Source: Cyclobacteriaceae bacterium (lineage in GTDB: Bacteria > Bacteroidota > Bacteroidia > Cytophagales > Cyclobacteriaceae). Taken from it: a stretch of 38,484 nucleotides of DNA. Position 1 is the stretch's first letter. Each line of letters opens with the position of its first letter. The notes beneath the pieces were generated by a model, which worked only from the letters and a program-made list of their open reading frames with translations, did no database searches and was not told the origin of the DNA. Below, piece by piece: positions 6,252 to 31,942 of this stretch. The stretch is from the NCBI GenBank assembly GCA_019638285.1, contig JAHBUB010000033.1:1-38484 (forward strand), in the 5' to 3' direction. A program made the position numbers and the translations under genes.

Positions 6252-6365
6252 TTCTTAGGTATTGAGTATTAGAACTTAGGAATTTGTAACTAAATCCCAA
6301 GACCTAAGTCCCAAGTCCCAATACCTAAGTCCCAATACCTAAGTCCCAATACCTAATACCCAATC
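6252..6365. repeat. Heptamer repeat array A (inverted arms)
   Basis: The right part, 6296-6365, is ten consecutive 7-base units with consensus CCYAAKW (for example CCCAATA, CCTAAGT). The left part, 6252-6286, is five heptamers of the reverse-complement type (TTCTTAG, GTATTGA, GTATTAG, AACTTAG, GAATTTG). The two parts can pair, for example TCTTAGGTATTGAG at 6253-6266 against a CCCAATACCTAAGT unit, 12 of 14. The array ends two bases from the stop codon of the leftward M14 copy 2, so it lies in that gene's 3' untranslated region. Confidence 0.85.
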
Positions 6366-6367
6366 TC

Positions 6368-9127
6368 CTACAAATGATTCCAGTTGATCAATACATTCCA
6401 CACCAAAGGTGCATCACTCAAATTGAGATAGCGATGCAATGGATCAAACGTAAAAGCTACTGCTCTACCTTTGCCCACCGGTACGTTAAAGATGGTGCCC
6501 TGTCCGATAATGGCTTGTTCATTTCTTACCATACCAGACAATACATAGGGTACATCTTTCTCTTTTGTTTTTGTGTCTGATGGAGCTTCTGATTTCTTAT
6601 CAGGCAAGCCCATGATGGGTCCAGTATATTCCACATCATCTTTTAATGGCTTGGTGCCATATTGCAACACCATCATGTCCCTATTGTACTTGGGTGTTTG
6701 AAACAAAGGTGCAATGCCCCTGAAAATTGGAAACACCTCAGGGTATCCATAGGTTACAGGACTGTCTTTTTTCTTGATCTTCACATTAACCACAGACCCT
6801 GGATGGAAAAGTGAAGGAGCGTTGTATGCACTTAGCCCGGGAATAATACCGGCATCTACCAACATCTTGGATGAATTATCAAGTGCCACGATCACGCCTC
6901 CTCCATCTACAAATTGACGCAGTTGACTTACACCCTCGAAGCCGGGACCTCCGGTCATGTCATTGGTAGCATCAGGAAATCCGTGGGAAGGAAACTCTTT
7001 TGTTTTGGTATAAGGTAATGGTCCCCATTTTTTATCAATCCCATTCACAAAATTATTACCATCACCGCGCATGCGTGGCACCAGAATCACATCAAACTTA
7101 GTGTTAAGAGCTCCGGCCCGCAGGTCATCTTTATCAATGGAGGTATAAGGAATCCCATAGCTGTCGAAAGTGAATCTCGACCAGCCTTCATCCTGCGTAT
7201 TGAACCAACTGTGGTAGATGGCTATGCGTGGCAAGGTAACTTCGTGTTGTTTTGCTGTGGGTGCGGTACTTACTGCAGTAAGGTCAAGTCCAAATTGAGT
7301 ACCGATCTTTTTCGCCTGATCGGAAGTGATGCCGGAGAACACGACAGATCCCGCTTCCATATTGGTTCCACCTATAGAAGCACTGGCCTCCAGCACACTA
7401 ATTTTTGCTTTCTTATTTTGTGATTTAATCCAATACATGGCAGGCAGTACTGCATTTTGTGCTTTGTAATTAAGTACATACGTTCCTCCATTTCCTTCTA
7501 CTTTTCCTTCATACCTCACTTCGCTGGTCACCATCTTCAGGTCACTGGCGTTGTAACTCACTTTGTCCTCCGTTTTCACATCTACACCATAGAGGTAGCC
7601 CATCGTCCAGGCGATATCGTCATAGGGAGGAAACTTTGCCTCCTTAGGATAATCTTGTTTAGACAGCAACGACACAGCGAGATTCCGATAAGGCTGATCC
7701 AGCAGCACCACGTAATCGCCTGATCCTGATTGATGCACTTCAATGTTTTGCTTAATCAACTGGTTCACTAAGTAAGCAGCCATGTTCGGGTCGCGCTGCG
7801 CTTTTGGAATTACATAAGCACGAAGAGACCCCTCCTTACCGCGCTTAATATTGTTTAGTCCTTTCTTGTAATAGTTATTAAGCAATAAATCGGCATTGGT
7901 GGCAGTATATCCCAACGCAGCGATCACACCGGCTTGCATGTAGTTCACATTATTTCTTGAAGACCAATTTACTTTTTCTGTAGCCGGGTCAGGACGGTAC
8001 CATTCTCTGCTGGTGACAGGGTCTCCCGCAAAACTGGATTTAGATAAGTCGCGCACATACGTATTGGCCCCTGCGTTTCCAAAGGTTTCATAGAAGCGGC
8101 CAATGGAATTATGATTATTGGCGATCCAAAATAAATAACCGGGATACCAGCCATCGTAGAAAGCCCAGGTAAAGGCACCTGGCAATCCCTGAGTCGCCAA
8201 TGCAGTTACATCGTGATTGGCCATTACCTGCCACTCGCCTACTAAAATAGGATCGATGGTCTCATTATAGGGGCCTGTTCCGGTAGACATATATATAAGT
8301 GGCACCGACTCGTGCAAGTCGTGCATCACCGTAGGGTGCCAGTCGTAATAGATCTTGTAGACTGCTTTGGTAAGTTCTTGAGATATCTGCAATCCATCGC
8401 GGTTATTATCGTGGTAAACATACTTACCCCAGTAAGGAGGTGAATGCATGAACCCATCTTCGTAATCATCATGAAATTTAGTGTAGCGATGGTACCAATC
8501 CACCTGTTTATCACGTCCGTCTACTTCAGCAGCAGGATTCACAATGATGATCACGTTGTCCATGATATTTTTAATCTCTTTGCTGCTGCTAGTGACTAAC
8601 CGATAGGTTAACTCCATCATCATCTCAGGAGAACCCATTTCAGGAGAATGCAGTCCGGCATTAAGGTAGTAGACGGGCTTGCTGTCCGCAATAATAGCCT
8701 CCACATCTTTACCTTCCAGTTTGCGCGGATCTGCCAGCAGCGCCAGTTGGCTGCGGTAGTGGTCTATGCGTTTCATTACGTCTTCATTGGCGATCACCAC
8801 AAGTTGTATAGGTCTTCCCTCTTCTGAAGTACCCACTTGTTGCATGGAAACTTTGGGAGAAGCCTTAGCCAGTGCCGCATAGTAACCATAGATTTCAGTA
8901 GTGGTGTGCATTTCGCCTGGAGCGCCAATGATTTTACCAAAATATTTTAATGGCGAAGGCACCTTGGCATCTGTTACCAGATTAAGCACCGACTCTGGTA
9001 AGAACCGGGTATCGGTGGTATACTCTTTTATCTTCTTATTGTACTCTTCGTCAATTTGCTGAGCAAATAAGGAAGTGCCGCTGAGGATTAACGCTAGGCA
9101 GGCAAATAGAATGTAGTGTTTTTGCAT
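6368..9127 (-). CDS. Secreted M14-family zinc carboxypeptidase (copy 2)
   Basis: A tandem paralogue of the adjacent copy 1, very similar from the signal peptide to the C-terminal NVLINWNHL. The open frame extends to 9205, but I place the start at the ATG at 9125-9127 because it gives a proper signal peptide (MQKHYILF...SLFAQQ) aligned with copy 1; the upstream 26 codons look non-coding. With this start there are 919 residues, and the zinc ligands fall at the same positions: H160, E163 (LHSPEMGSPEM), and a His in DLHES; NNRDG and RFYETFGN are also kept. The C-terminal third carries the same amidotransferase-like region. Both copies look catalytically intact, so they may differ in substrate or expression. 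Confidence 0.92.
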   Translation of the reverse strand: MQKHYILFACLALILSGTSLFAQQIDEEYNKKIKEYTTDTRFLPESVLNLVTDAKVPSPLKYFGKIIGAPGEMHTTTEIYGYYAALAKASPKVSMQQVGTSEEGRPIQLVVIANEDVMKRIDHYRSQLALLADPRKLEGKDVEAIIADSKPVYYLNAGLHSPEMGSPEMMMELTYRLVTSSSKEIKNIMDNVIIIVNPAAEVDGRDKQVDWYHRYTKFHDDYEDGFMHSPPYWGKYVYHDNNRDGLQISQELTKAVYKIYYDWHPTVMHDLHESVPLIYMSTGTGPYNETIDPILVGEWQVMANHDVTALATQGLPGAFTWAFYDGWYPGYLFWIANNHNSIGRFYETFGNAGANTYVRDLSKSSFAGDPVTSREWYRPDPATEKVNWSSRNNVNYMQAGVIAALGYTATNADLLLNNYYKKGLNNIKRGKEGSLRAYVIPKAQRDPNMAAYLVNQLIKQNIEVHQSGSGDYVVLLDQPYRNLAVSLLSKQDYPKEAKFPPYDDIAWTMGYLYGVDVKTEDKVSYNASDLKMVTSEVRYEGKVEGNGGTYVLNYKAQNAVLPAMYWIKSQNKKAKISVLEASASIGGTNMEAGSVVFSGITSDQAKKIGTQFGLDLTAVSTAPTAKQHEVTLPRIAIYHSWFNTQDEGWSRFTFDSYGIPYTSIDKDDLRAGALNTKFDVILVPRMRGDGNNFVNGIDKKWGPLPYTKTKEFPSHGFPDATNDMTGGPGFEGVSQLRQFVDGGGVIVALDNSSKMLVDAGIIPGLSAYNAPSLFHPGSVVNVKIKKKDSPVTYGYPEVFPIFRGIAPLFQTPKYNRDMMVLQYGTKPLKDDVEYTGPIMGLPDKKSEAPSDTKTKEKDVPYVLSGMVRNEQAIIGQGTIFNVPVGKGRAVAFTFDPLHRYLNLSDAPLVWNVLINWNHL

Positions 9128-9220
9128 GGGAATGGTCTGTTTTTCTAGAATACGAAAAGTAGCAAATACCCTTACGCCCATGTGGTTTGTATTGATAAGC
9201 GGCAAAGTTTGTTTATAGAC

Positions 9221-9297
9221 GTTTCCAGTTACAGGTTACAAGTTTCCAGTAATCATCAACCATTATCTAGTATCCAGTATCTAGCATCCAGCATCAC
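9221..9297. repeat. Heptamer repeat array B
   Basis: Eleven contiguous 7-base units run from 9221 to 9297 with consensus close to GTATCCA: GTTTCCA, GTTACAG, GTTACAA, GTTTCCA, GTAATCA, TCAACCA, TTATCTA, GTATCCA, GTATCTA, GCATCCA, GCATCAC. The last unit overlaps the stop codon of the leftward M28 peptidase gene (9294-9296). Unlike the other arrays in the window, no clear inverted partner is seen. Confidence 0.85.
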
Positions 9298-10958
9298 CTC
9301 TTTTCAATCTTCACAGGTGTTTGTCCAAACTTCCCACCAAAAAAATCACCTTTGTTCCATGTGGGCCGCTGTGGATCGTTGGCCACCTGATATCCGGTAA
9401 GAAAATTAACCTTCACATGGGTGCCCGCAGCGTCAAAATCAAAATCCTGACTCATGTCGTCATTGGGTCTGTGGTAGGTAGTACTTCGCCATGCCAAATC
9501 GGATACACTTCTATCTATCTTATCTTCTGGAACCGTTTTGAAACCACTCTTTATAAATAAAGCGGGGATTCCTTTCTTGATGAAACTATAATGATCACTT
9601 CGAATAAAAACTACTTGCTCAGGAAAGGGATCGGGCGCAATGTCAATGTGGAGGTATTTGGCAGTAACACCCAAAGGCTTCGATAGACTCGAATGCTGCG
9701 CTCCATAAGGAACAATGTCTAAAATCGGGTGAAAGAAGAAAGGCATATCGATAGAAAAGTTAGCGACAATACTCTCCTTCGGTACCGTTGGGTTATTGGC
9801 AAAATAATCTGACCCCAACAAACCCATCTCCTCACCCGTCACGATGGCTATAATAATGGAACGTTTGGTAGGCTCCGGCAATCGCATGTAGGTACGTGCT
9901 ATCTCTAATAAAATAGAAGTGCCCGAAGCATTGTCGTGTGCCCCATTATATATTGAGTCTCCTTTCATAGGCGCGCCCACTCCTACATGATCCACATGGG
10001 CAGCATACACCACGTATTCATTTCTTAATACTGGATCACTTCCAGGAATTACCCCAATCAGGTTGGAAGATTGAATGGTGGTAGTGGTGGTGGCTACTTT
10101 CATTTCCGCATCCAGGTTGAGCGCAAATGACATGGGCTTATTGGCTTTAATGCTTTCAATGACAGCTTCCATTTTCTTATTTGAATTCGAAAATAGTTTG
10201 TCGGCCTGCGCTGTATTGAACACGCCTATCACTTTTAGTTCTTCAAAAGTATTTTGTGCTTTGCCTTGCTTGTCCGCCCAACGTATAGTTCCGGATTTAG
10301 ATCTGTTCACTGTAGACTCCCAGGTTCTTCGTGAATCTCCGGGCAACTGCATAGAGATTGCACCTACCGCACCGCGCTGCACTGCTTCTTCATATTTAGT
10401 GGAGGCCGAAGAAAAATAGGCGCGTTCATTGGATGGAAATGATTCCGGAGCCTGATCGAAGTAAACTACAATCTTTCCTTTTACATCTATCTTATTATAA
10501 TCATCATACCCCAGCTCCGGGGCATGAACACCATACCCCACAAAGACCAATGGTGCTGAAACTTCAGAAGCATTGAGTACCAGGTTGGGTTGCAGTACGT
10601 AATCCTTACCAAAGGTCTGTACTTCCTTATTCCCCTTTTTAATTATACTTAAACTGCTTTTAGAATTGTCTACAACCCCACTCTTCAGGGTCACAGGCTG
10701 AACGTACGATTTACCCTCTACACCGGGCAGTAAGCCTATGCTGATAAATTGGGCTTCTACATATTTTGATGCCAACGCAAACCCGGGGGTGCCTGGTTTC
10801 CTACCCAGCAACAAATCATCCGCCAGATAAGTCATGTCTGCTTTGATGTGACTGGGCTTTATCTCTTTAATGGCGTTTTCAGCAGCTGGTGTGATTTGCG
10901 CAGATAAACAATGTGCCGTTATTACAAAGAGGGACACGGAGAGTAGTTTTCTTATCAT
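9294..10958 (-). CDS. Secreted M28-family zinc aminopeptidase with PA domain
   Basis: A di-zinc aminopeptidase, exported by a signal peptide (residues 1-20, cleaved near CLSAQ). A protease-associated (PA) domain spans about 125-245. The M28 catalytic domain spans about 295-545. Expected metal ligands are H321 (AAHVDHVG), bridging D342 (GAHDNASG), E377, D404 (FSIDMP) and H456 (RSDHYSF); E376 in TGEEMGLLGS is the general base. FSIDMPFFF replaces the more usual NIDMVG-like sequence after the fourth ligand. Length of 554 is normal. It lies 166 bases upstream of M14 copy 2 on the same strand, so the three peptidases form a leftward group likely to work in extracellular or periplasmic peptide digestion, although heptamer arrays separate the genes. 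Confidence 0.92.
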   Translation of the reverse strand: MIRKLLSVSLFVITAHCLSAQITPAAENAIKEIKPSHIKADMTYLADDLLLGRKPGTPGFALASKYVEAQFISIGLLPGVEGKSYVQPVTLKSGVVDNSKSSLSIIKKGNKEVQTFGKDYVLQPNLVLNASEVSAPLVFVGYGVHAPELGYDDYNKIDVKGKIVVYFDQAPESFPSNERAYFSSASTKYEEAVQRGAVGAISMQLPGDSRRTWESTVNRSKSGTIRWADKQGKAQNTFEELKVIGVFNTAQADKLFSNSNKKMEAVIESIKANKPMSFALNLDAEMKVATTTTTIQSSNLIGVIPGSDPVLRNEYVVYAAHVDHVGVGAPMKGDSIYNGAHDNASGTSILLEIARTYMRLPEPTKRSIIIAIVTGEEMGLLGSDYFANNPTVPKESIVANFSIDMPFFFHPILDIVPYGAQHSSLSKPLGVTAKYLHIDIAPDPFPEQVVFIRSDHYSFIKKGIPALFIKSGFKTVPEDKIDRSVSDLAWRSTTYHRPNDDMSQDFDFDAAGTHVKVNFLTGYQVANDPQRPTWNKGDFFGGKFGQTPVKIEKR

Positions 10959-11110
10959 TAGAAAGTTGGTTAGCTATGCTAAAGATAACCATTCCAATTT
11001 TTAAATGACAAACACTATCGATTGCGCGCTCAATTAATTTTATCCGATATTCAGAAGCCTCTAATAATAGCAGAATGATCTCTTGGTATTTGATTAGTTA
11101 CTAGCAATGG

Positions 11111-12689: not shown

Positions 12690-12690
12690 A

Positions 12691-13776: not shown

Positions 13777-13800
13777 ACTATTTAAAACAACTGAGTTTTA

Positions 13801-15126: not shown

Positions 15127-15131
15127 ATGAC

Positions 15132-15725: not shown

Positions 15726-15747
15726 GGTTTTCTGAAAACAGGGCGCA

Positions 15748-15786
15748 AATTAAACGCTTGTTTAAGTTTTAAACAAGCGTTTAATT
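15748..15786. promoter_or_regulatory. Twin palindromic operator upstream of tetR
   Basis: A perfect 18-bp inverted repeat (15748-15765 and 15769-15786) has a three-base spacer. Each arm is itself a palindrome of form TTAAACnnnnGTTTAA: TTAAACGCTTGTTTAA and TTAAACAAGCGTTTAA. Their centres are 19 bases apart, so two repressor dimers could bind on nearly one face less than two helical turns apart. It lies where the promoter of the efflux operon should be. Binding by the adjacent TetR protein is inferred from position and form. Confidence 0.8.
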
Positions 15787-15865
15787 AATAATTCTCGCAG
15801 TTCTTAAGCAGGTTCGATTCGTAGCTGAAACAGTGCAAATCACAGGCTACAGGATAGAATTTAAA

Positions 15866-18905: not shown

Positions 18906-18907
18906 TT

Positions 18908-18933: not shown

Positions 18934-18999
18934 GGATTAGTATAAATTTTGTTAAAGAAATGTAGGGGGAATTTAATTTAGACGCTTAAATGTGCTTAT

Positions 19000-21360: not shown

Positions 21361-21370
21361 ATATTCTAAA

Positions 21371-23812
21371 TTATTCTTCTTTCAATACTTCGATTGGATT
21401 CCTTAAACCAGCCTTTATGGATTGATAAGCAACGGTAACCCAGGTAATGGCTAACATGGAAAGCCCCGCCCATACAAATTCACTAATGGTAATATCCACC
21501 GGATAGGGAAATTGACTTAGCCAATCATTCATGGCGTACCAGCCTAGCGGAACTGCAATAACAAACGCTATCAATACCAGCATTGTAAAGTTTTTATTGA
21601 GAAGGAACACAACCTGATTGACCGATGCACCCATTACTTTCCTCACTCCAATTTCTTTCTTTCTTTGTTCAGCAGAGTAAGTAACCAAACCTACCAGACC
21701 TATCATAGCAATTAAAAGCGATAGCCCTGCAAATACACTAAACAATCCCCCCAACCGTTGTTCTCTTTCGTATTGACTTGCCCACATCTGATCTAAAAAC
21801 GAGTATTCAAAAGGAGCATCGTTAATGCGGGCCTCCCACTTTTCTTTCAAAGCTGCAATAATGTCGCTAGCGTAATTGCTTTGAATTTTAATGGCAATCA
21901 CTTTCCCAATCTCCCAAATATCTGAATCTATATGATAGAAAATAGAAGGTGCAATTTCTCTGTGCAGCGAAGCAAAATGAAAATCCTTAACCACTCCAAT
22001 AATTTCCCCCACATCATCACCCAACTCGGAATAAATAATTCTCTTACCTATTGCTTCATCAGGGGTCCAGCCAAATAACCGAACGGCTGTTTCGTTAGGG
22101 ATTACTTTGTTTTTATCACCCGATCTGTTCAAATCGAAGGCTCTACCAGCAACCAAAGACAATCCCATCGTCTCGAAATAATGTTCATCAATTTTAGTTT
22201 GTGAAATAGAGAGTTCAATATCACCTCCCTCCTTCTTGAAAACATCTTCAAATGAACCACGACCTGGTACTGTCATGGCAATACTTGCATCAACTACACC
22301 CGGCAGCGAACCCACCTCTTCACGGAAAGCTTTCACGCTTTCACCGAGTCGTTCAGCATTATTTAATACTAAAATATTTTCTTTGTTAAAGCCCAGGTTC
22401 TTTGATTGAAAATAATCAAGTTGCTTTTGTACAATGATGGTAGCAATAATAAAAACGATAGAAACAACAAACTGAAGAGTCACCAGGCCATTGCGCAAAC
22501 CTGATTTGAATCCAGAAGCAATTTTTCCCTTCAACACATTCGCTGGTTTGAAAGCCGTGAGATAAAAAGCTGGGTAAATACCAGCTACGAATCCAACTAC
22601 AATAGGAAGCGCAATCAGCAACCACAAATTGTTACCTCCATCCCATATCGAAAATGGCATTTCAATGCTCAATACATTAGAGATTACTATCCTGAAAAGT
22701 TCCAACAGCCCCAATCCCACCAACGTAGCTAACGAAGTCATCAAAATTGATTCTAATTGAAATTGAAATATCAATGACTGCCTGAATGCACCCAAAACTT
22801 TTTTAACACCAACCTCCTTGGCCCTTGAGGCGCCACGAGCTGTGGACAGGTTAACAAAATTGATGATGGCCAACACCAGCACAAAAAATGCTACCAGTGA
22901 AAATATTTGCACATATTTAATATCTCCAGTTGGTCCAATGCGATTGTCAACTTTATCCGAATATAAGTGAATACTTCTAACAGGCTGAAGGGCAAACGTC
23001 CAATCACCCTTACCTTTCATAAATTCTTCATAATTTATCCCCAACCTCCCAAAACTTGGGATAACGTACTGGGTGACCATACTTTTCATTTTGCTTTCCA
23101 AAGCTGCAACATCAGCTCCTGGTTTTAACTTTACATAAGTGGCTGTTTGCGTCCAAACCCAACTCCATTCAAATCGTTTGATGTTTGGATTGGTGTACAT
23201 TGAAATCAAATAATCAAAATGAAAATGCATGTTGTCAGGTTGATGTGTCGTTACCCCGGTAATCTCAACAGCACGCTTGTCTTCTCCAAATTGCAGAATC
23301 TTTCCTAAGGCTGGCTCATCACCGAAAAACTTCTTAGCGATCTTATCTGAGATCACCACTTTGTCCACTCCTTGTAGTGCGGTTATTGAATTACCTTCTT
23401 TCAATGGGATGGAGAAAAAATTAAAGAAGTTAGAATCAGCAGCCAACACATTATCCTCATTGAAAGCCTCAATCTGACCGTTCGGCTGTTGATAGCGAAC
23501 TAAATAACTACCCGCAGTATTCACCCTCATTGATTGCTCCACCTCTGGAAAGTCTTCGCGTAAAACCAACGCCAGTTGGGGCCCAGTTGAGCCCATCATG
23601 CCACCATTAGGCGCCCATATCAAGGTTTGATTTACTCTATAAAGTCTGTCCAGATCTTTGTGAAAATTGTCATAGCTCATTTCAAATTTCACATAGCTCC
23701 AAATCAAAAGGCAAACAGATATGCCCAATGCCAATCCCACTATATTGATAAGAGAGAAGTAACGCTCTCTAAGTATGTTTCGGATCGATGATTTAAAAAA
23801 GTTTCTTAACAT
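21371..23812 (-). CDS. FtsX/MacB-type ABC permease (third gene of operon)
   Basis: 813 residues with the complete two-module layout. N-terminal helix about 20-40, preceded by the amphipathic start MLRNFFKSSIRNILRER. Signatures KEVGVKKVLGA (332-342) and KEIGVRKVMGA (719-729). The first periplasmic domain includes the conserved FFGDEPALGK and PGADVAALESK elements common to these permeases; a GDWTF...LQPVRSIHLYS stretch precedes the second helix. Ends NPIEVLKEE. Separated by 38 bases from the preceding gene and 10 from the next. It resembles the 786-residue protein more than the other two operon members. Confidence 0.9.
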   Translation of the reverse strand: MLRNFFKSSIRNILRERYFSLINIVGLALGISVCLLIWSYVKFEMSYDNFHKDLDRLYRVNQTLIWAPNGGMMGSTGPQLALVLREDFPEVEQSMRVNTAGSYLVRYQQPNGQIEAFNEDNVLAADSNFFNFFSIPLKEGNSITALQGVDKVVISDKIAKKFFGDEPALGKILQFGEDKRAVEITGVTTHQPDNMHFHFDYLISMYTNPNIKRFEWSWVWTQTATYVKLKPGADVAALESKMKSMVTQYVIPSFGRLGINYEEFMKGKGDWTFALQPVRSIHLYSDKVDNRIGPTGDIKYVQIFSLVAFFVLVLAIINFVNLSTARGASRAKEVGVKKVLGAFRQSLIFQFQLESILMTSLATLVGLGLLELFRIVISNVLSIEMPFSIWDGGNNLWLLIALPIVVGFVAGIYPAFYLTAFKPANVLKGKIASGFKSGLRNGLVTLQFVVSIVFIIATIIVQKQLDYFQSKNLGFNKENILVLNNAERLGESVKAFREEVGSLPGVVDASIAMTVPGRGSFEDVFKKEGGDIELSISQTKIDEHYFETMGLSLVAGRAFDLNRSGDKNKVIPNETAVRLFGWTPDEAIGKRIIYSELGDDVGEIIGVVKDFHFASLHREIAPSIFYHIDSDIWEIGKVIAIKIQSNYASDIIAALKEKWEARINDAPFEYSFLDQMWASQYEREQRLGGLFSVFAGLSLLIAMIGLVGLVTYSAEQRKKEIGVRKVMGASVNQVVFLLNKNFTMLVLIAFVIAVPLGWYAMNDWLSQFPYPVDITISEFVWAGLSMLAITWVTVAYQSIKAGLRNPIEVLKEE

Positions 23813-23850
23813 TAGATCTAGTAGTAAGTAGTATATAATAAGAATACAGT

Positions 23851-26238
23851 CTATTCATTTCTTAACGCCTCCACCGGATTGGCTATGGATGCTCTCACTG
23901 ATCGATAGCCCACCGTAGCCAAGGCAATGAGTAGTGTAATGCCAATACCCGTCACAAACATGAAGCTATTGAGCGGTACACGATAAGCAAAATTATCGAG
24001 CCAATTACCCATCACATAGGCCGCCAAAGGGGAGGCAATAACAAAAGCGACAACGATCAGAATAATAAATTCCTTTGAAAAAATAATGAGGATGTTTCCA
24101 GTAGATGCCCCCAATACTTTGCGCACACCTATTTCCTTTTCCTTTTCATTGGCCATAAAAGAGATCAAGCCATATAACCCCAAACAACCAATGGTAATGG
24201 CGATCCCTGAAAAGAGAATCAGTAGAGTGGACATTTTTTGTTCTGATTCATAGAATTCCTTAATCTCATTGTCCAAAAACTCATAGCTGAATAAAAAGTC
24301 GGGGTACTGTGTTGTCCATGCCTTCTCTATTTCACTTAGAGTTTGTTTCCCTGATCCAGCTTTTAATTTAACGGATGCTGTGCGGTAACTGTCGAGCTCA
24401 TTGAAAAGGATAGTAGGATCAATCTCACGTGTGAGTGACATGGTATGAAAATCTTTCACCACACCTGCCACCGCCAACTTCAATCCCCAAATAGTAATGA
24501 CCCTTCCTAATATATCTTCCGGGTTTTTGAGTCCTAGCGATTTCAGGAGCCGCTCGTTCACCAAGCAAGAATTGGCTGTATCCAAACCCACCAGGTTATT
24601 TCCTGCCAGAAACTCTATCTTAAACAAATTCACATAATTTTCATCTACCAATTTAACCTGTGTAAGGTGGTTATCTGCTATCCCTTCAATGGTAAAAATC
24701 GTCATGGACACCGATCCGCTGGATGGTGGTGTGTTGCATAGGCTTACACTTTCTACTCCACCCAACCTCAACAACTCAGACTTCAGCACCTTCTTATTGT
24801 TCAATGGTGCATTGTCCGGAATGGGTAGATTAATAACTGCATCTTTAGAAAATCCTAGATCTTTGTTTTCCAGAAAATTCATCTGCGATAATAGTATTAC
24901 AGTTCCTACAATCAACAATTGGGAGATCACAAATTGAAATACCACCAAACTTCTGCGCAAAGAAAAGCCTCCTGTGCTCCGGTTGGTAATTTTATTTTTT
25001 AGCGCCTGTGCGGGGCTGAAGCCAGACAGTAACAGGGCAGGATAAAAGCCGGAGGCTAAACTAACTACTATCCATACGATGAACAAGAATAAGATGAGTT
25101 GTATATTAGTAAAATCTACGTGCAGGTTAAGGTTCAGGAAAGAATTCAACCGGATCAATGCCAACTCTGATAGGCCCACAGATAATAACAATGCCGCCAA
25201 CGTAATTAGTCCGGTTTCAGCCAGATACTGACTTATTAACTGGAGCCTTTGGCTTCCCAACACTTTGCGAATGCCTACTTCCTTTGAGCGTTTCACGGCC
25301 ACTGCAGTAGAGAGGTTGATAAAGTTGATGCAGGCCGTAATCAATAAGAACAATGCTACTACTCCCATGGCAAGGATGGATGTTTTACTAACTGTAGCAT
25401 AACGATAGTTACCGAAGCGCGTATCATAATTCATATCCTGAAGTGGCTGTAACCATCTTTTTAAACTTACTTCCTCCCTATCGGTCTCATGTTTTTTGAC
25501 AAATGAAGGAAATTGATTGTTGATGGCATCAGGAGATGTTCCTGCTTCCAACATGACATAACATTGATCATCGCTATAAACACTGCCCCAGTCTCCATCT
25601 TCTTCCTTCTCTTTTTGGATGGTGAGGTAGGAAATAAGAATTTCAAAAGGAAAACTGGTATTATCAGGATGATCCTCCATGACACCGGTCACCTTCAGAT
25701 CTGTCTTATTATTCAATTTGATAAGCTGACCCATAGGGTTGGCGTCTCCGAAAAATTTCTTTGCTATATTTTTTGAAAGAATAACTTGATTGGGTTGCTG
25801 AAGCGCTGATTTGTAGCTTCCCATCAGGAAGTCTCTCTTGAAAAAAGTAAAGTAGGTAGAGTCAGTGTATGCGACTCCGTCTTCCTGTTCAAAAATCTTT
25901 GAAATACCACTGTCAACAATAGTAAACAGTGCGTTGTTATCGCCTGAAATAAACAAGACATGCTGGATACCAGTAAATTCACTGGCTACAGCCTCAGGGA
26001 GAGGGACAGGCACACCAGCAAAAAAATCTTCCCTACCGTTGTTCTGTGATGAAGATACTATCCGATAAATTCTATCCTTGTTGTTATGAAAATTATCAAA
26101 ACTCGTGTAGAAGGTGATCATCAGAAAAAGCACCAAGCTGCAGGTAATACCCAATGCAAGGCCAAAAATATTAATGAGGGAATAACTTAAATTCCTTTTT
26201 AAATTGCGAATGGCGATGGTGAAATAGTTTTTAAGCAT
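23851..26238 (-). CDS. FtsX/MacB-type ABC permease (second gene of operon)
   Basis: 795 residues, intact. N-terminal helix in SLINIFGLALGITCSLVLFL (20-39). Signatures KEVGIRKVLGS (319-329, with a final S in place of A) and KEIGVRKVLGA (701-711). LSTAVAVKR before the first signature and SQRLQLISQYLAET after it match the 797-residue upstream neighbour (LSTAVAIKK, SRTQLVSQYMGEA), so these two are the closer pair. The periplasmic domains carry FFGDANPMGQ and LQPLQDMNYD. Ends NPVEALRNE. It is 47 bases downstream of the previous permease. Confidence 0.9.
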   Translation of the reverse strand: MLKNYFTIAIRNLKRNLSYSLINIFGLALGITCSLVLFLMITFYTSFDNFHNNKDRIYRIVSSSQNNGREDFFAGVPVPLPEAVASEFTGIQHVLFISGDNNALFTIVDSGISKIFEQEDGVAYTDSTYFTFFKRDFLMGSYKSALQQPNQVILSKNIAKKFFGDANPMGQLIKLNNKTDLKVTGVMEDHPDNTSFPFEILISYLTIQKEKEEDGDWGSVYSDDQCYVMLEAGTSPDAINNQFPSFVKKHETDREEVSLKRWLQPLQDMNYDTRFGNYRYATVSKTSILAMGVVALFLLITACINFINLSTAVAVKRSKEVGIRKVLGSQRLQLISQYLAETGLITLAALLLSVGLSELALIRLNSFLNLNLHVDFTNIQLILFLFIVWIVVSLASGFYPALLLSGFSPAQALKNKITNRSTGGFSLRRSLVVFQFVISQLLIVGTVILLSQMNFLENKDLGFSKDAVINLPIPDNAPLNNKKVLKSELLRLGGVESVSLCNTPPSSGSVSMTIFTIEGIADNHLTQVKLVDENYVNLFKIEFLAGNNLVGLDTANSCLVNERLLKSLGLKNPEDILGRVITIWGLKLAVAGVVKDFHTMSLTREIDPTILFNELDSYRTASVKLKAGSGKQTLSEIEKAWTTQYPDFLFSYEFLDNEIKEFYESEQKMSTLLILFSGIAITIGCLGLYGLISFMANEKEKEIGVRKVLGASTGNILIIFSKEFIILIVVAFVIASPLAAYVMGNWLDNFAYRVPLNSFMFVTGIGITLLIALATVGYRSVRASIANPVEALRNE

Positions 26239-26285
26239 ACTCTTAATTAATAATTTTAATCCGTCTAGTTGATTATCTTATCTAT

Positions 26286-28679
26286 TTATTCATCCCTTAA
26301 TGAATCAACAGGATTGGCAACCCCAGCCTTTCTGGCCTGATATCCAATGGTAAGGAATGCAATGACCACATTGATAAGTCCACCCAGCAAAAAATAATAA
26401 GGTGATAAATCTATTTTGTATGCAAATCCACTTAACCATTGCTCCATCGCATACCAGCTTACAGGTGCTGCTATCAGGAATGCTATCAACAGAAGCTTCA
26501 TAAAATCCGTGGAGAAAAGAAGAACAATTCCTGCCACAGAAGCCCCTAATACTTTTCTTACCCCCACCTCTTTCGTTTTTTGCACCACCATAAAGGAGAT
26601 CAATCCAAATAACCCAAGACATCCTATACCAATCGATATTCCTGCAAATATTTTAAAGATAGAAAAGAGCTGTTCTTCCCTACTGTAATTCTTCGCCATA
26701 GCATCATCAAGAAACTCATAGGTAAACAAATAACCAGGATAAGCCATCTCCCATACACTTTTTATATGTTCGATTGTTTCTGGAACATTGCTATTGGAAA
26801 TCTTAACACCTCCCTCAAAGTACAGCACAGGGTATTGAAACATGACAATGGGTTTAATCGCCTCCCGAAGTGACTTGACATGAAAATCTTTCACCACTCC
26901 TACCACATTTCCCTTAATATCATTCATGCCAAACGAAATCTCTTTGCCAAGAACTTCTTCTGAAGAGTACCCCAACTCGCGAGCGGCAGTTTCGTTAATT
27001 ACAAATTCAATTTCTTCCCCATTCTGGTTCTCCTTTAAATACCACCTTCCGGAAGTAAGCCGCAGATCGTATGTTTTCAAATAATCGAAGTCCACAGTTT
27101 TAAACGATACCTCAAAATCTCCTTCAAGTCCGGTCACTTTTACTTCAGAATTGATGTCATTATCAGATGTGGGAGCTCCTACACCAAAAGAAACGTTTTG
27201 TACATTGCTATTCGATAGCAATTCAGTTTTCAGTGTGTGAAGTAATGTAGGGTCATTATCCTTTAAAGAAAAAGTTACAATCTGTTCTTTATCAAATCCG
27301 AGCGGTTTGTTTCTAAAAAAGTTCATCTGACTCGCCACTACAATTGTTCCAATAATTAATACCTGACTAATCACAAACTGAAAGGTGACCAATCCACTTC
27401 TGAGAAAAAGTGAGGAGCTATTGTGGCTACTCAATCTGGCTTTCAATGCGGCCACAGGTTTGTACCCAGATAAAATCCAGGCAGGATACAAGCCAGACAA
27501 TAACGAAACCAATAAAATACCACTCGCAAATATCCAAACAGAGGATGGATTGCTTAACGTAAGCATGGACATACCTGTATCCAAAAAGGTATTTAAGAAA
27601 GGAAGTACACGTTCTGCTATGCCCAATGCAATCAATGCCGATATAAATGTCAGCACAAACGCCTCACCCATGTATTGGCTCACAAGTTGCGTACGCGAAG
27701 CCCCCATCACTTTTCTCACTCCTACTTCTTTTGCTTTCTTGATCGCAACCGCTGTACTTAAATTAATAAAATTGATGCATGCAAGGAGTAAAATAAAAAT
27801 CCCAACCATACCTAACACCCACAAATACGTAGTGTCAATAGTATAACCCGAATTAGATTGCGCATACGCTTTATCAAAATGAATTTCGTTCAGTGGTTGT
27901 AACTCATATCTTGTTTTTGTTGCGCTCTCTTCGGATAAGTATTTCTTTGGAAGTGAAACCATTTTTTCCTCAAAATCAGCTTCAGAAATGCCATCAGGAA
28001 GCAGGATATAGTTGGTAAATTCAATTGTCACATTCCATGAATCATATTTAAACGCACCAATAAATTCATTATTAAACGAGTCAATCGACACAATCATCGA
28101 AAAAGTAAGGTGAGAGTTTTTTGGAGGATCCTTAATAACACCAACGATTTCTACATCGACTACCTCAGAAATATTTACTATCTGTCCAATGGGTGATTTC
28201 GAACCAAATCGATTTCGCGCCATAGACTCAGTGACTACCGCTACATTTCTATTCTTAAATGATTGAAGTGGGTTTCCTTCTATTGCTGGGAAATCAAAAA
28301 CTTTGAAAAACGAGGAGTCAGCAAACATTACATTTGGCTCTATCCACATTTTTTCTCCCACCTTCAACTGATGTTCTTCTGGTGGATAGATTTGTGTAAC
28401 TGCCTTCAGCTCCGGGAAATCGTTTATTAAGGCTGCCCGCAACGGAAATGGAGTGGAAGAAGTACGCTTTGTCAATGATCCGCCTGATTCTTCTCGGGTG
28501 ACCCTGAAGATGCGATCTTTCTTAGTATGGAACTCATCAAAGTTGAGTTCATAGTCAATCAACAGAAACAAGATCAAACAAATGCTTATACCCAGACTCA
28601 GACCCAACAAGTTGATGATGGTCGAAACCTTGTTCCTAGTTAGATTTCTAAAAGTTATTTTGAGGTAGTTCTTCAGCAT
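26286..28679 (-). CDS. FtsX/MacB-type ABC permease (first gene of operon)
   Basis: 797 residues and first of the four-permease leftward operon. N-terminal helix in TIINLLGLSLGISICLILFL (20-39). Signatures KEVGVRKVMGA (317-327) and KEVGVRKVLGA (703-713). The first periplasmic domain has RFGSKSPIGQ and LQPLNEIHFDKAYAQ. Ends NPVDSLRDE. It is divergent from the sigma-54 activator gene, with a 193-base shared control region containing a candidate sigma-54 promoter. Proteins of this kind usually need a MacB/LolD-type ATPase; that gene is absent here and must act from elsewhere if it exists. Confidence 0.9.
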   Translation of the reverse strand: MLKNYLKITFRNLTRNKVSTIINLLGLSLGISICLILFLLIDYELNFDEFHTKKDRIFRVTREESGGSLTKRTSSTPFPLRAALINDFPELKAVTQIYPPEEHQLKVGEKMWIEPNVMFADSSFFKVFDFPAIEGNPLQSFKNRNVAVVTESMARNRFGSKSPIGQIVNISEVVDVEIVGVIKDPPKNSHLTFSMIVSIDSFNNEFIGAFKYDSWNVTIEFTNYILLPDGISEADFEEKMVSLPKKYLSEESATKTRYELQPLNEIHFDKAYAQSNSGYTIDTTYLWVLGMVGIFILLLACINFINLSTAVAIKKAKEVGVRKVMGASRTQLVSQYMGEAFVLTFISALIALGIAERVLPFLNTFLDTGMSMLTLSNPSSVWIFASGILLVSLLSGLYPAWILSGYKPVAALKARLSSHNSSSLFLRSGLVTFQFVISQVLIIGTIVVASQMNFFRNKPLGFDKEQIVTFSLKDNDPTLLHTLKTELLSNSNVQNVSFGVGAPTSDNDINSEVKVTGLEGDFEVSFKTVDFDYLKTYDLRLTSGRWYLKENQNGEEIEFVINETAARELGYSSEEVLGKEISFGMNDIKGNVVGVVKDFHVKSLREAIKPIVMFQYPVLYFEGGVKISNSNVPETIEHIKSVWEMAYPGYLFTYEFLDDAMAKNYSREEQLFSIFKIFAGISIGIGCLGLFGLISFMVVQKTKEVGVRKVLGASVAGIVLLFSTDFMKLLLIAFLIAAPVSWYAMEQWLSGFAYKIDLSPYYFLLGGLINVVIAFLTIGYQARKAGVANPVDSLRDE

Positions 28680-28718
28680 AATCTGTTGGTTGATTTCCGC
28701 TTATTATGATTTACCCAG

Positions 28719-28733
28719 ACCATAAACATGCCA
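28719..28733 (-). promoter_or_regulatory. Candidate sigma-54 promoter of the permease operon
   Basis: On the minus strand TGGCATGTTTATGGT matches the -24/-12 consensus TGGCACGnnnnTTGC at all five leading bases, the central G, and the T and G of the -12 part. It departs at three positions, including the usually conserved final C. It lies about 40 bases before the first permease start codon and opposite a gene for a sigma-54 activator, which supports it. Still a weak match. Confidence 0.35.
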
Positions 28734-28796
28734 ATAATGTAAATACTTTATAATCAATTAATTACTTAGAATAGGTGTTCGCTCTTGTAAAAAAGA

Positions 28797-28835
28797 GTAA
28801 CAGAAACGATACACATAAATGTGTGATATTGTTAC
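28797..28835. promoter_or_regulatory. Nested inverted repeat upstream of the sigma-54 activator gene
   Basis: The core ACACAT-aa-ATGTGT (28811-28824) is a perfect 6+6 palindrome. Around it GTAACA (28797-28802) and TGTTAC (28830-28835) form a second matching pair, with spacers of eight and five bases. It ends 38 bases before the regulator start codon. It may be the binding site of the activator (as an enhancer for the leftward promoter about 80 bases away) or of another regulator. Confidence 0.5.
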
Positions 28836-28872
28836 AATTTGCTACCTTGATCCTCCAATCATTTGAGAAGCA

Positions 28873-30240
28873 ATGACCAAAGGAAATATTCTTATTGTAG
28901 ATGACGACCGGGATGTATTGGAAACAGCTAAAATGTTCCTCAAGCAGGAGTTTTCAAATGTCGTAATTGAAGAAGATCCTGAAAATATCCTACCTCTGTT
29001 AAATCAGCAGGATTTTGATGTTATCCTTTTGGATATGAATTTCAGCAAGGGAATTAACGATGGAGCGGAAGGGTTTCAATGGCTCGATCAAATTCTAAAA
29101 CTAGACACCCAAGCCGTTGTTATTCTTATCACAGCATACGGTGAGGTAGACCTTGCTGTAAAGGCGATGAAATGCGGAGCAACAGATTTTGTACTCAAAC
29201 CCTGGAAAAATCAAAAGCTATTAGGCACCATCTTGTCTGCCTTTCAACTGAGGAAATCCAAAAAAGAGCTTGAAAAAGTAAAGTTGACCCAGGAAAAATT
29301 GAGTAGCGATCTGGACATTGGCTTTACTGATTTTGTTGGTAGTTCCAACGCCATACAACGGGTGCATGAATTAATAGATCGTGTTGCAAGTACGGATGCG
29401 GACGTGCTAATCCTTGGTGAAAACGGAACTGGCAAAGAGCTGGTAGCACGCGCCATCCATCGTCAGTCCCTTAGAAAAGACAAAGTCTTTATCAGTGTAG
29501 ACCTGGGTGGAATCACAGAATCGCTTTTTGAAAGTGAGCTATTCGGTCATGTGAAGGGTGCCTTTACCGATGCCAAACAAGATAAGCCAGGAAGGTTTGA
29601 AATCGCCTCAGGAGGAACATTGTTCCTGGATGAAATTGGTAATCTCTCCCCTTCACTTCAATCCAAATTGCTAACCGTTCTCCAGCAGCGAAAGATTCAA
29701 CGGGTGGGATCCAACAAAGAGATCAGTGTAGACTTTAGGCTAATATGCGCCACCAACATGCCGCTGTACGAAATGATCTACGAAAAAAAGTTTCGTCAAG
29801 ACTTATTGTATAGAATTAATACAGTGGAAATCAGAGTGCCACCGCTTAGGGAAAGACAAGAAGATATGGATTTGCTCGTTCAGCATTTCCTGGAGATGTA
29901 TGGCAAGAAATATAAACGTCAGGGAATAAAGATGGATAAAGCTATTTTCACGAAATTAAAAAAGTATCCTTGGCCAGGCAACATCAGAGAACTTCAACAT
30001 GCGATTGAAAGGGCTGTGATCTTAACGGATGGGAAAGTGATTCACTCTGCTGACTTACTTATTAACAGCATTCCGGCTAAGTCGCAAGAGCCTAGGCAGC
30101 AGCTTACGATGGACGAAATGGAAAAGTCTTTTGTTATAGAATCATTAGACAAACATGAAGGAAATGTAAGCAAGACAGCGCGTTCGCTTGGGATGACGCG
30201 TACCGCTTTGTATAGAAGAATGAAAAAGTATAAGATATAA
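28873..30240 (+). CDS. Sigma-54-dependent response regulator, NtrC family
   Basis: Activator of RNA polymerase containing sigma-54. Receiver domain 1-125: acidic pocket D10-D12, phospho-acceptor D54 (ILLDMNF), conserved K109 (VLKPW). AAA+ domain about 150-390: Walker A GENGTGKE (182-189), Walker B FLDE (251-254), arginine-finger region FRQDLLYRIN (307-316). The sigma-54-contacting loop reads GAFTDA (229-234), not GAFTGA. C-terminal Fis-type helix-turn-helix about 413-455 (NVSKTARSLGMTRTALYRRM). It is the first of a rightward pair with the histidine kinase, but 171 bases and hairpin array C lie between. Divergent to four permeases, which it probably controls. Confidence 0.95.
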   Translation: MTKGNILIVDDDRDVLETAKMFLKQEFSNVVIEEDPENILPLLNQQDFDVILLDMNFSKGINDGAEGFQWLDQILKLDTQAVVILITAYGEVDLAVKAMKCGATDFVLKPWKNQKLLGTILSAFQLRKSKKELEKVKLTQEKLSSDLDIGFTDFVGSSNAIQRVHELIDRVASTDADVLILGENGTGKELVARAIHRQSLRKDKVFISVDLGGITESLFESELFGHVKGAFTDAKQDKPGRFEIASGGTLFLDEIGNLSPSLQSKLLTVLQQRKIQRVGSNKEISVDFRLICATNMPLYEMIYEKKFRQDLLYRINTVEIRVPPLRERQEDMDLLVQHFLEMYGKKYKRQGIKMDKAIFTKLKKYPWPGNIRELQHAIERAVILTDGKVIHSADLLINSIPAKSQEPRQQLTMDEMEKSFVIESLDKHEGNVSKTARSLGMTRTALYRRMKKYKI

Positions 30241-30253
30241 TTTTGATCAATGA

Positions 30254-30340
30254 ACTGTTGACAGTTGATAAAAACAATTGACAATAAACATGGTTGCACT
30301 GAATAGTTGTCAACTGATCTTTGTCAACTGTCAATTTATT
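30254..30340. repeat. Heptamer repeat array C (inverted arms)
   Basis: Left arm 30254-30288: ACTGTTG, ACAGTTG, ATAAAAA, CAATTGA, CAATAAA. Right arm 30306-30340: GTTGTCA, ACTGATC, TTTGTCA, ACTGTCA, ATTTATT. Pairing is strong at TTGACAGTT (30258-30266) with AACTGTCAA (30326-30334) and at TTGACAA (30278-30284) with TTGTCAA (30307-30313). The array starts 13 bases after the response-regulator stop codon and is followed by a T-rich run, so it could act as a weak terminator before the kinase gene. Confidence 0.8.
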
Positions 30341-30411
30341 TTTTTGACCCTCACTTTGCAAATCATCGAAGAAATCAATGAATATGATAATCTTTGCGTG
30401 AAACTTAACAC

Positions 30412-31776
30412 ATGTTCTATAAAAAATTCACCTTCTTAATTGTTCTAAGGATTGCGTTGCTGACAGTTAACGTATTGATACTTTCCATTATTTTCGGTGA
30501 TACCCGACTTTTTTTTAATCAAATTATTTTATTTGTTCTGCTGACCATTCAAATAGGGGAATTGATCCGGTTTGTGAACCATACCAATCGGGAGCTTGCA
30601 AGACTTTTTCTGGCCATCCGTTATTCCGACTTCTCCATTACATTCCGAGAGCCTCCTTTGGGTAAATCTTTTAAAGAACTCCAGCATAGTATGATGGAAA
30701 TTATTCAAGCCTATAAGGACGTGAAAATAGAAAAAGAGGCGCAATATCATTTCCTGCAAACGCTTGTCAAGCAACTCCAGTTTGGAATCATATCACTTGA
30801 AAGTGAAAGCACTATCACCATCATCAATCCAATGGCAGAGCAGTTGGCAGGAATACCTGGAGCAAAGAATTGGAAGATAGTGAAACAGTTAAATCCGGAA
30901 TTTGCGGAACGGATGGATGAACTTGGTGACAATGCCCGAAGCTTGATGCAGTTTACAGTCAATGGAGAGAAGAAGACATTCGCGGTGGATATCCGCACTC
31001 CCATTATTCTGGATAAGCCACACAAGCTCATTACATTTCAAGACATCAATTCTGAAATTGAGCAAAAGGAAATTGAAGCATGGCATAAATTGATTCGGAT
31101 TCTAACCCATGAGATCATGAACTCGGTCACTCCCATTGCTTCGCTTACTGAAACCATGCAAACTATGCTCGAAGACAAAGAAGGAGAGCAGAAGCAAATA
31201 AATGAAATTGAAGAAGAAACCATTACAGACATTCGCTTTTCATTAAAGACTATTCACAAGCGCAGCGAAGGTCTTCTCAGCTTTGTTGACGCCTATAGAA
31301 AACTGACCAAGGTACCTCACCCTTCTATTGAATCCATTGTAGTAAAGGAAATGTTGGATGAAATTATTCGGCTGATGCAACAACAAGCTTCTGAATTAAA
31401 ATCAATTGATTTTATAGTGGATGTAAATCCGATTGATCTTATTGTCCGTGCTGATCCCAAACTCATTGAGCAAGTAATTATCAATTTGGTCACCAATAGC
31501 ATACAAGCCATAGACAGTAAAAAAGCCGGAATGATCACTTTAAAAGGGTATAAAGAAAACAACCGGATCATTATTGAAGTAGCTGACAATGGAAAAGGAA
31601 TACCAGAAAAAGAATTAAGTGAAATTTTTGTTCCGTTCTTCTCTACCAAAAAGGAAGGATCAGGAATTGGTTTAAGTCTGTCAAAACAAATTATGAGTCT
31701 TCATGGAGGAACCATTAAGGTAAAGTCTACCCATGAAAAAGGAACTTCATTTTATTTAAGCTTCAGAAAGAAATAG
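30412..31776 (+). CDS. NtrY-like sensor histidine kinase
   Basis: Membrane histidine kinase, partner of the upstream response regulator. Two closely spaced N-terminal helices (about 8-29 and 33-52) leave almost no periplasmic loop, so sensing is likely in the membrane or by the PAS domain (about 110-215, QFGIISLESESTITIINPMA). H-box LTHEIMNSVTPI with H233 as the phospho-acceptor is the NtrY form. ATPase domain: N-box NLVTNSIQAI, G1 DNGKGIPE, F-box FVPFFSTK, G2 GSGIGLSLSKQI. At 454 residues it is short for NtrY because it lacks the large periplasmic loop. Co-directional with the response-regulator gene; array D starts three bases after its stop. Confidence 0.94.
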   Translation: MFYKKFTFLIVLRIALLTVNVLILSIIFGDTRLFFNQIILFVLLTIQIGELIRFVNHTNRELARLFLAIRYSDFSITFREPPLGKSFKELQHSMMEIIQAYKDVKIEKEAQYHFLQTLVKQLQFGIISLESESTITIINPMAEQLAGIPGAKNWKIVKQLNPEFAERMDELGDNARSLMQFTVNGEKKTFAVDIRTPIILDKPHKLITFQDINSEIEQKEIEAWHKLIRILTHEIMNSVTPIASLTETMQTMLEDKEGEQKQINEIEEETITDIRFSLKTIHKRSEGLLSFVDAYRKLTKVPHPSIESIVVKEMLDEIIRLMQQQASELKSIDFIVDVNPIDLIVRADPKLIEQVIINLVTNSIQAIDSKKAGMITLKGYKENNRIIIEVADNGKGIPEKELSEIFVPFFSTKKEGSGIGLSLSKQIMSLHGGTIKVKSTHEKGTSFYLSFRKK

Positions 31777-31778
31777 TC

Positions 31779-31942
31779 TTGAGTATTTAGTCCTTAGTCC
31801 TTAGTATTGAGTATCCGTTCACCCAATACTACTTTGTCATGTTCGCCTTTTTTGCCCTAAGCCCTGAAGGGAAAAGGCGAAAAAACCAAATCGATTTTCG
31901 AATGTAACAAAGTTGGACTAAGGACTAAGAACTAAATATTAA
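31779..31942. repeat. Heptamer repeat array D with structured core
   Basis: Left arm 31779-31813 is five heptamers (TTGAGTA, TTTAGTC, CTTAGTC, CTTAGTA, TTGAGTA). Right arm 31915-31942 is GGACTAA, GGACTAA, GAACTAA, ATATTAA, which is the reverse complement type. Between them lies a further palindrome: ACTTTGTCATGTTCG (31831-31845) against CGAATGTAACAAAGT (31899-31913), 12 of 15, and an inner perfect 10-bp stem TTCGCCTTTT (31842-31851) with AAAAGGCGAA (31872-31881). The whole 164-base element fills the gap between the kinase stop and the amidohydrolase start, which is only five bases further. Confidence 0.85.

Follow-up and report, generated by a model that had tools for sequence, protein, structure and literature searches.

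The question raised by this locus is what kind of DNA fills four gaps between protein genes, in which short words return about every seven bases and which begin at, or a few bases behind, a stop codon. The window (the whole stretch of 38,484 nucleotides analysed, contig JAHBUB010000033.1 of a Cyclobacteriaceae bacterium) contains four such arrays, A to D, listed with the neighbouring genes in Table 1. In the initial annotation they were suggested to be free-standing 3'-end structures or products of replication slippage.

Table 1. Positions of the heptad arrays and of the adjoining genes in the window
Feature	Position	Strand	Description
Array A	6252..6365	-	Heptad hairpin; lag-7 segment 6269-6364, score 25; fold z -7.4
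Array B	9221..9297	-	Mostly direct heptads; lag-7 segment 9221-9295, score 28; fold z -2.1
M28 peptidase gene	9294..10958	-	Peptidase_M28; stop overlaps array B
NtrC-type response regulator gene	28873..30240	+	Sigma54_activat, Response_reg, HTH_8; upstream of array C
Array C	30254..30340	+	Hairpin of GTCAACT-like words, then a T run; fold z -3.8
Histidine kinase gene	30412..31776	+	HATPase_c; between arrays C and D
Array D, left arm	31775..31814	+	AGTnnnn units; lag-7 score 19
Array D, interior	31815..31914	+	Without IVP gene; partly palindromic; folds within the D hairpin
Array D, right arm	31915..31942	+	ACTnnnn units; lag-7 segment 31915-31958, score 17

Heptad arrays in the window

All four arrays were initially described as having an exact period of 7, and this is true of A, B and D, which are found as lag-7 segments and give period-7 or period-14 rows in TRF. 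In 77-base windows the identity at lag 7 peaks at 0.636, compared with 0.494 in the best of 60 shuffles and 0.506 at the best of the other lags from 4 to 12. Array C stays below every lag-7 threshold applied, in the 77-base windows as well as in the segment scan, and is a hairpin whose right arm carries GTCAACT-like words spaced 14 and 7 bases, so that an exact period is overstated for it. The units differ among the arrays and drift within them, and do not form a perfect tandem of TAACTGA; the notion of a period that is kept while the sequence of the unit changes is borne out.

The placement at or within about 13 bases of a stop codon was correctly read. The genes on either side of array A are both on the minus strand, and 3 bp separate the array from the stop of the upstream gene (6368-9205). 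Array B overlaps the stop of its gene, array C starts 13 bp past the stop at 30240 and the first AGT of the left arm of D overlaps the kinase stop TAG. The identities given to the genes upstream of B, C and D (M28 peptidase, NtrC-type regulator, histidine kinase) agree with the profile domains, and the kinase has relatives at 86, 73 and 61% identity. Inverted arms had been noticed in three arrays and correspond to clear, long hairpins at A, C and D (RNA fold z for D -7.1), while B folds weakly, with 4 of 200 shuffles equally good. When judged by eye, a T run follows the stem of C and none follows A, B or D. An Rfam scan of the window returned no matches, all four arrays sit between protein genes, and no PF05635/S23 gene lies inside any of them. 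The interior of D has no second copy in 2.77 Mb of its own genome and is not a dispersed repeat there; three stretches similar to C are present on contig C5.

Period-7 signal across the genome

The lag scan of the own genome covered 2,771,306 of 3,978,398 bases, counted segments scoring at least 14 and was controlled with one order-3 Markov shuffle. An excess of period 7, which had been proposed as a check, is present: 29 lag-7 segments were found versus 0 in that shuffle. The other lags from 4 to 13 gave 0-18 segments (18 at lag 12), and lags 14 and 21, being multiples of 7, gave 20 and 30. Enrichment behind stop codons was the second proposed check and is likewise found, with 15 of 27 intergenic arrays within 10 bp of a stop (expected 3.9 ± 1.8). 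Divergent gaps hold 1 of 23 arrays, as against 313 of 1336 among all gaps.

With regard to the words themselves, ACT at period 7 is enriched in the own genome (31+24 matches versus 5+3 for the reversed pattern) and in the sum over 39 genomes (1510 versus 427). A universal ACT-anchored heptad was nevertheless dropped, as no more than 23 of the 39 genomes have an ACT count above that of the reversed pattern, and 11 have a lower one.

Heptad arrays bordering IVP genes

IVP/S23 (PF05635), the 23S rRNA intervening-sequence protein, is a four-helix bundle that forms rings. Genes of this family were reached by way of pairs of arrays, and two sets were evaluated with a lag-7 flank cut-off of 12: 35 loci of the order and 80 named loci. 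The cut-off is reached at 22 of the 35 order loci versus 2 of 35 far flanks, other lags from 4 to 13 giving 0-1, and at 52 of the 80 named loci versus 16 of 80 far flanks, which means that the far flanks of the named set are raised as well. Among genes of the own genome that do not encode an IVP, 54 of 2465 (2.2%) have such a flank. The score is missed at 13/35 and 28/80 IVP loci, some of which have period 8 or 9, and the own genome has six IVP genes of which only three reach it. The two flanks are inverted relative to each other: the reverse complement of the right flank matches the left one above three shuffles at 30 of 35 order loci, and an inverted-flank score of at least 13 is found at 58 of 80 named loci near the gene and at 1 of 66 far from it.

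The arms fit closely between genes. Arms were counted when they scored at least 11 and had a gene boundary no more than 400 bp away; the distance is 10 bp or less for 41 of 59 arms that face a stop and for 39 of 46 that face a start. The called neighbours are mostly co-directional with the IVP gene, on the left (28/31 and 71/75) and on the right (31/34 and 67/74). In 128 IVP arms taken in one polarity, AGT or AGA occurs in 95 and ACT or TCT in 14; since the arms also use other words, the claim is limited to a preference for AGT/AGA in one polarity. A minor observation is that 74 of the 128 arms contain stops in each of the three frames in the left polarity (33.5 when shuffled) and 41 in the opposite polarity (15.3 when shuffled), also above shuffle; an excess in both polarities is expected because 7 and 3 have no common factor.

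Over the 39 genomes the number of IVP genes follows the number of ACT arrays with rho 0.67, a correlation that is not clean because the reversed pattern gives almost the same value (0.63). For the period-8 pattern rho is 0.21 (p 0.20), and one genome, G028, holds 135 of the 205 period-8 matches. Two genomes, G003 (77% complete) and G036, have ACT arrays and no IVP match.

Words shared between elements and sites in relatives

At non-matching sites the sharing of arm words is 0.287 for IVP pairs with a protein similarity of at least 0.65 (20 pairs, drawn from few loci and not independent) and 0.008-0.020 below 0.5. The correlation of arm sharing with protein similarity over whole sets was discarded as evidence, being no better than in the far flanks (order set 0.205 versus 0.300, named set 0.204 versus 0.211, both together 0.241 versus 0.205); a separation is seen only for pairs at non-matching sites. 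Array D is linked to IVP loci by its words: 96% of the heptamers of its left arm are found in the arms of an IVP locus of its own genome (L140) and 70% of those of its right arm in the arms of another IVP locus (L149). Array A has 26% of its heptamers in common with the arms of locus L198, about the maximum (0.266) of 300 random intergenic stretches whose 99% point is 0.167, and B and C share no words above random with any IVP arm tested.

The genes that flank C and D abut at the matching sites of relatives (G040, G017). Those around C are 5 bp apart in the close relative G040, and the own gap measures 171 bp, which is more than the 87-bp hairpin. An IVP element near a thiolase gene is present in the own genome and in G040 and absent from G017. 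At site B the relatives have other sequences: G040 carries another gene there, and in G017 the site is filled by about 1 kb that includes a gene resembling a RAYT by eye, hence this site offers no empty-site evidence. The choice between insertion and loss at C and D is drawn from the relatives only, no movement having been observed.

Origin of the arrays

Plain replication slippage, by which the arrays would be long simple sequence repeats of the STRR type, extended seven bases at a time where no coding constraint acts, with the tie to IVP secondary, is unlikely. Heptanucleotides are reported to outnumber the other classes in most genomes rich in repeats, and slippage has been put forward for them (Mrazek 2007, as related in the available part of PMC4679880); the number of units is variable, an IVP gene is missing near many arrays, and the excess of lag-7 segments does place tandem units beyond chance, although this names a descriptive class only. 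Against it stand the rarity of arrays beside other genes compared with IVP loci, the organisation of arms as inverted pairs adjoining stop and start codons, and the near absence of arrays from divergent gaps. Slippage may set the number of units within the arms. An origin of the hairpins as transcription terminators or stabilisers of mRNA 3' ends, the heptad build being incidental, is improbable: the strong folds at A, C and D, the T run after C and the position directly after stop codons speak for it, but A, B and D lack such a run, a terminator at C or D would cut an operon, the neighbouring genes being adjacent in a relative, and this view does not account for the association with IVP genes. 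The initial idea of free-standing products is opposed both by the arrays that border IVP genes and by the sites of C and D. Repeats of REP type mobilised by a RAYT (Y1_Tnp) transposase are very improbable. The RAYT-like gene at site B of G017 is accompanied by palindromic repeats, and Y1_Tnp is matched six times in the own genome, five times over the cut-off; yet the repeats of G017 are not heptad arrays and a lag-7 array lies within 500 bp at none of the six loci (best score 7).

It is considered probable that the arrays belong to a family of small IVS-like elements at gene junctions of operons. As the arrays look like the borders of IVP genes, A to D may be gene-less copies, which is put forward for D, as probable for A and C and as perhaps true of B. 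This reading is built on sequence comparison, that is on arms beside PF05635 genes, their position and direction, the words shared by similar IVPs at unrelated sites and by D and an IVP element of its own genome, and genes that abut in relatives. The element would consist of an IVP/S23 gene flanked by a pair of inverted arms, each made of about five seven-base units that drift in sequence, and would mostly lie in sense between protein-coding genes of an operon, with the outer edges of the arms at the stop of one and the start of the next. Gene and arms would move as one unit, the transcribed arms could pair into a stem and be open to cleavage by RNase III, which has been shown for a rRNA IVS, and the heptads might be recognised by an IVP pentamer. 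Gene-less copies may be mobilised in trans or left by gene loss.

A wider reading is offered tentatively, as possible but less likely than not: a cross-phylum class of selfish elements acting at the RNA level. A pentameric IVP ring would follow a seven-base grid along the transcribed arms, each subunit taking one AGW triplet and each arm offering about five, in the manner of TRAP, which reads spaced triplets. A single element that enters stop/start junctions in sense, often with an arm providing the stop codon, would then account, in forms with and without the gene, for ribosomal IVS and for the intergenic heptamers of Bacteroidota, and perhaps for the heptamers of cyanobacteria and Beggiatoaceae as well.

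Comparison with known systems

Cyanobacterial STRR are short tandem heptamers in intergenic DNA, and the arrays resemble them by that description alone. Closest is the 23S rRNA IVS of Coxiella burnetii, in which tandem heptamers lie beside an S23 gene and which is cut out by RNase III; according to the available part of the report (PMC4990558) it also has a PF05635-type gene within stem-forming inverted terminal repeats, in sense direction, and is called selfish. In contrast, the six IVP loci of the own genome were not found in rRNA genes (the Rfam scan covering the window only) and have protein genes as neighbours, the arms are arrays of drifting heptads, and there are probably gene-less copies. 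In open-licence PMC text, which excludes preprints and most subscription papers, no paper tying PF05635 to seven-base arrays was found beyond these Coxiella heptamers. The function of the protein is given as unknown in the available parts of PMC11270868 and PMC4990558; the tie to heptads offers a candidate ligand and makes the question accessible to a binding assay.

PF05635 also resembles Avd of diversity-generating retroelements (PMC10053308, in part), and the IVP of L140 matches bAvd weakly (E 7.8e-06), short of the cut-off of the family. In contrast to those retroelements, none of the arrays was found next to a reverse transcriptase gene; such an enzyme was rejected as a partner, the single RVT_1 match of the own genome being located on contig C79 and lacking heptad flanks. 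The tRNA-Leu intron of Nostoc has in its P6b region a stem of degenerate seven-base units (TDNGATT or NNTGAGT) that changes in steps of seven, but these units lie inside a group I intron and the available part of PMC4476775 mentions no IVP gene.

No named family of this sort in Bacteroidota was known to the initial annotation, and here it has to be corrected, for the available part of PMC4679880 describes repeats of the heptamer TAACTGA in five Bacteroidetes as well as in various cyanobacteria and in Beggiatoaceae. They too are intergenic arrays, often just upstream of starts, with one set of Flexibacter litoralis just past a stop. They differ in having a fixed unit and in being proposed as translational regulators, with no IVP mentioned in that part of the paper. 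The tie between PF05635 and heptads also gives the heptamer repeats, recorded independently in various phyla, a candidate for a common origin.

Period-7 arrays across the genome

The window spans contig C27 of the source genome from end to end. The initial annotation ascribed an exact period of 7 to all four arrays of the window, which holds for A, B and D, whereas C forms a hairpin and is weakly periodic; the stop-codon positions it gave were reproduced. Folding of A, C and D beats 200 of 200 shuffles each, and that of B is not better than all 200. The anticipated genome-wide excess was borne out by lag-match scoring of 2,771,306 bases of the draft source genome (3,978,398 bases, 85 contigs), where 29 lag-7 segments score at least 14 versus none in one order-3 Markov shuffle. 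At this score the other lags from 4 to 13 give 0 to 18 segments (18 at lag 12), and lags 14, 15 and 21 give 20, 17 and 30, respectively. Lowering the threshold to 13 yields 33 lag-7 segments, from which six lying mostly inside predicted genes were removed. With genes called by simple open-frame rules, a stop codon is found no more than 10 bp from 15 of the remaining 27 arrays (null mean 3.9, sd 1.8, maximum 10 over 200 simulations), in agreement with the proposed link to stop codons; start codons lie equally close to nine (null 4.9, sd 2.0, maximum 11, 200 simulations). When arrays are merged into sites and only sites with two called neighbours are counted, 18 of 23 are flanked by co-directional genes, four by convergent and one by divergent ones; gaps of at least 40 bp in the same genome number 833, 190 and 313, respectively.

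Features discussed in the text, with their locations
Feature	Location	Description
Array A	window 6252-6365
Array B	window 9221-9297
Array C	window 30254-30340
Array D	window 31775-31942
Open frames	window 19000-28679, minus strand	four successive frames, each 786-813 aa long, which may be paralogues in tandem
Three C-like hairpins	source contig C5, near 508, 19532, 26448-26514	each beside a predicted stop codon
ACT arrays	source C48:115-138; C58:114-144	some 115 bp into their contigs, suggestive of an assembly break at the repeats
IVP gene group	G018:C36:117304-122073	5-kb span with three PF05635 genes, beside a thiolase gene
L261, site of B in a relative	G017:C33:34200-38400	about 1 kb separates M28 and next peptidase genes; open frame RAYT-like by eye, with palindromic repeats; a different element type at B's junction

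Arrays bordering intervening-sequence protein genes

Four successive ACTnnnn units have 55 matches in the source genome versus 8 for the reversed pattern. Several matches are paired, with AGTnnnn on the left, ACTnnnn on the right and an interior of about 20 to 400 bp, and some arrays are single. The genome carries six genes of the 23S rRNA intervening-sequence protein (IVP, PF05635), all flanked by repeats by eye, three of them with a lag-7 score of at least 12; this score is reached at 54 of 2465 other genes (2.2%). No heptad border was seen there at RVT_1 (one locus) or Y1_Tnp (0 of 6 loci). PF05635 is present in 33 of 39 genomes searched, the source genome included, and the IVP of locus L140 is 71% identical to a protein of a Cyclobacteriaceae genome, which makes Bacteroidota the probable source group. 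IVP is also named among the domains in a figure legend on CRISPR-linked systems (PMC10910872).

Among 35 IVP loci of the order set (the six of the source genome and the best locus from each of 29 relatives), a lag-7 flank score of at least 12 is seen at 22, versus 2 when far flanks are scored. The same score is attained at 0-1 loci for lags 4-6 and 8-13, and at 16 loci for lag 14. In 30 of the 35, the left flank and the reverse-complemented right flank match better than in all three shuffles. A separate scan gave the named set, the best 80 of at least 576 confirmed IVP loci, in which the lag-7 score is reached near the gene in 52 of 80 versus 16 far, lag 8 in 9 versus 1, and inverted repeats scoring at least 13 occur in 58 of 80 near versus 1 of 66 far (14 loci have no far flank). 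Within these best 80, the records outside Bacteroidota by title that have such a lag-7 flank are Gloeocapsopsis, Thiohalocapsa, two Fibrobacter records and metagenome-assembled genomes labelled, possibly wrongly, Limnohabitans, Alphaproteobacteria, Phycisphaerales, Ignavibacteriales and Acidobacteriota. Loci of the same 80 labelled Nomurabacteria, Desulfosarcina, Desulfobacteraceae, Desulfatiglandales, Lambdaproteobacteria and Methanophagales stay below 12 at lag 7, and several of these loci have their best score at period 8. Perfect ACTGAATT arrays of period 8 occur in many places on the 9-Mb single contig (C1) of relative G028, with 135 matches of the period-8 ACT pattern.

Arm anatomy was described from 128 arms scoring at least 11, a cut which omits short arms: the median arm has 5.0 units (rounded lengths of 5, 4 and 6 units occur in 41, 33 and 20 arms, respectively), and the consensus unit in left-arm polarity holds AGT or AGA in 95 and ACT or TCT in 14. 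Where such an arm has a gene boundary within 400 bp, its outer edge is no more than 10 bp from a stop codon in 13 of 16 cases of the order set and 28 of 43 of the named set (best 80 of at least 576); for start codons the corresponding counts are 14 of 16 and 25 of 30. Counting called neighbours only, IVP genes share the direction of their left neighbour in 28 of 31 and 71 of 75 loci and that of their right neighbour in 31 of 34 and 67 of 74 (same sets), a sense bias which agrees with an element residing within transcripts, like an rRNA IVS (intervening sequence).

Relation of the window arrays to IVP arms

Heptamers of D recur in IVP arms: 96% of those in its left arm are found at L140 of the source genome and 70% of those in its right arm at L149; for A, 26% are found at L198. 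Among 300 random intergenic 90-bp stretches the 99% point is 0.167 and the maximum 0.266, and B and C fall inside this random range. Further source arrays have words in common with L140 (several) or L144 (contigs C17, C34). The C-like hairpins are a small family on one contig.

In the window the intergenic distance is 171 bp for C and, measured to the called start, 170 bp for D. In G040 (kinase 86% identical) the regulator-kinase gap is 5 bp and there is a 4-bp overlap between the kinase and the gene after it; both junctions are tight in G017 (73%), and G015 (61%) has a C gap of about 100 bp without the window's hairpin and a different neighbour at D. An IVP element stands by a thiolase gene in the source genome and at the same site in G040, with only a few ACT heptads in G017; the same thiolase gene adjoins IVP genes in G008, G015 and G018 as well.

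Arm words and protein similarity were compared for 97 of 115 loci with usable protein and arms (the named part being the best 80 of at least 576). Far flanks correlate with protein similarity as well as arms do, or better (0.300 versus 0.205 in the order set, 0.211 versus 0.204 in the named set, and 0.205 versus a modest 0.241 together, the arm value of 0.241 being equalled in 0 of 2000 permutations), and the analysis was therefore limited to pairs with scarcely matching far flanks (3098 of 4656). Arm sharing in these pairs is 0.008-0.020 below a protein similarity of 0.5, then 0.038, 0.058 and 0.108, and reaches 0.287 in the 20 pairs with a similarity of at least 0.65, of which 14 share 0.1 or above; these 20 come from few loci, e.g. 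Mucilaginibacter, Sphingobacterium, Daejeonella and Flavihumibacter records. No arm heptamers are in common in 12 of 15 pairs among the six source loci.

Possible mechanism and known systems

The proposed IVS-like elements are described from their observed borders, position, direction, word sharing and tight junctions in relatives. An IVP pentamer may bind one heptad unit per subunit, in likeness to TRAP; PDB entries 2gsc and 2rld hold five chains each. A homopentameric torus is described in PMC4990558, citing Lin 2006. The arms would base-pair within the operon transcript, and their stem may be an RNase III substrate, after the Coxiella rRNA IVS, for which PMC4990558 reports cutting in vitro. 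The arrays are classed as IVS-like elements and not as rRNA IVS, because an rRNA location was not found in the window. Searches of open-licence text found neither a general tie of PF05635 to inverted heptad arrays nor the idea that arrays at stop codons are members of the family without a gene. Heptamer repeats are already reported from Bacteroidetes (PMC4679880) and an rRNA IVS (PMC4990558), and heptad stems from the Nostoc tRNA-Leu intron (PMC4476775).
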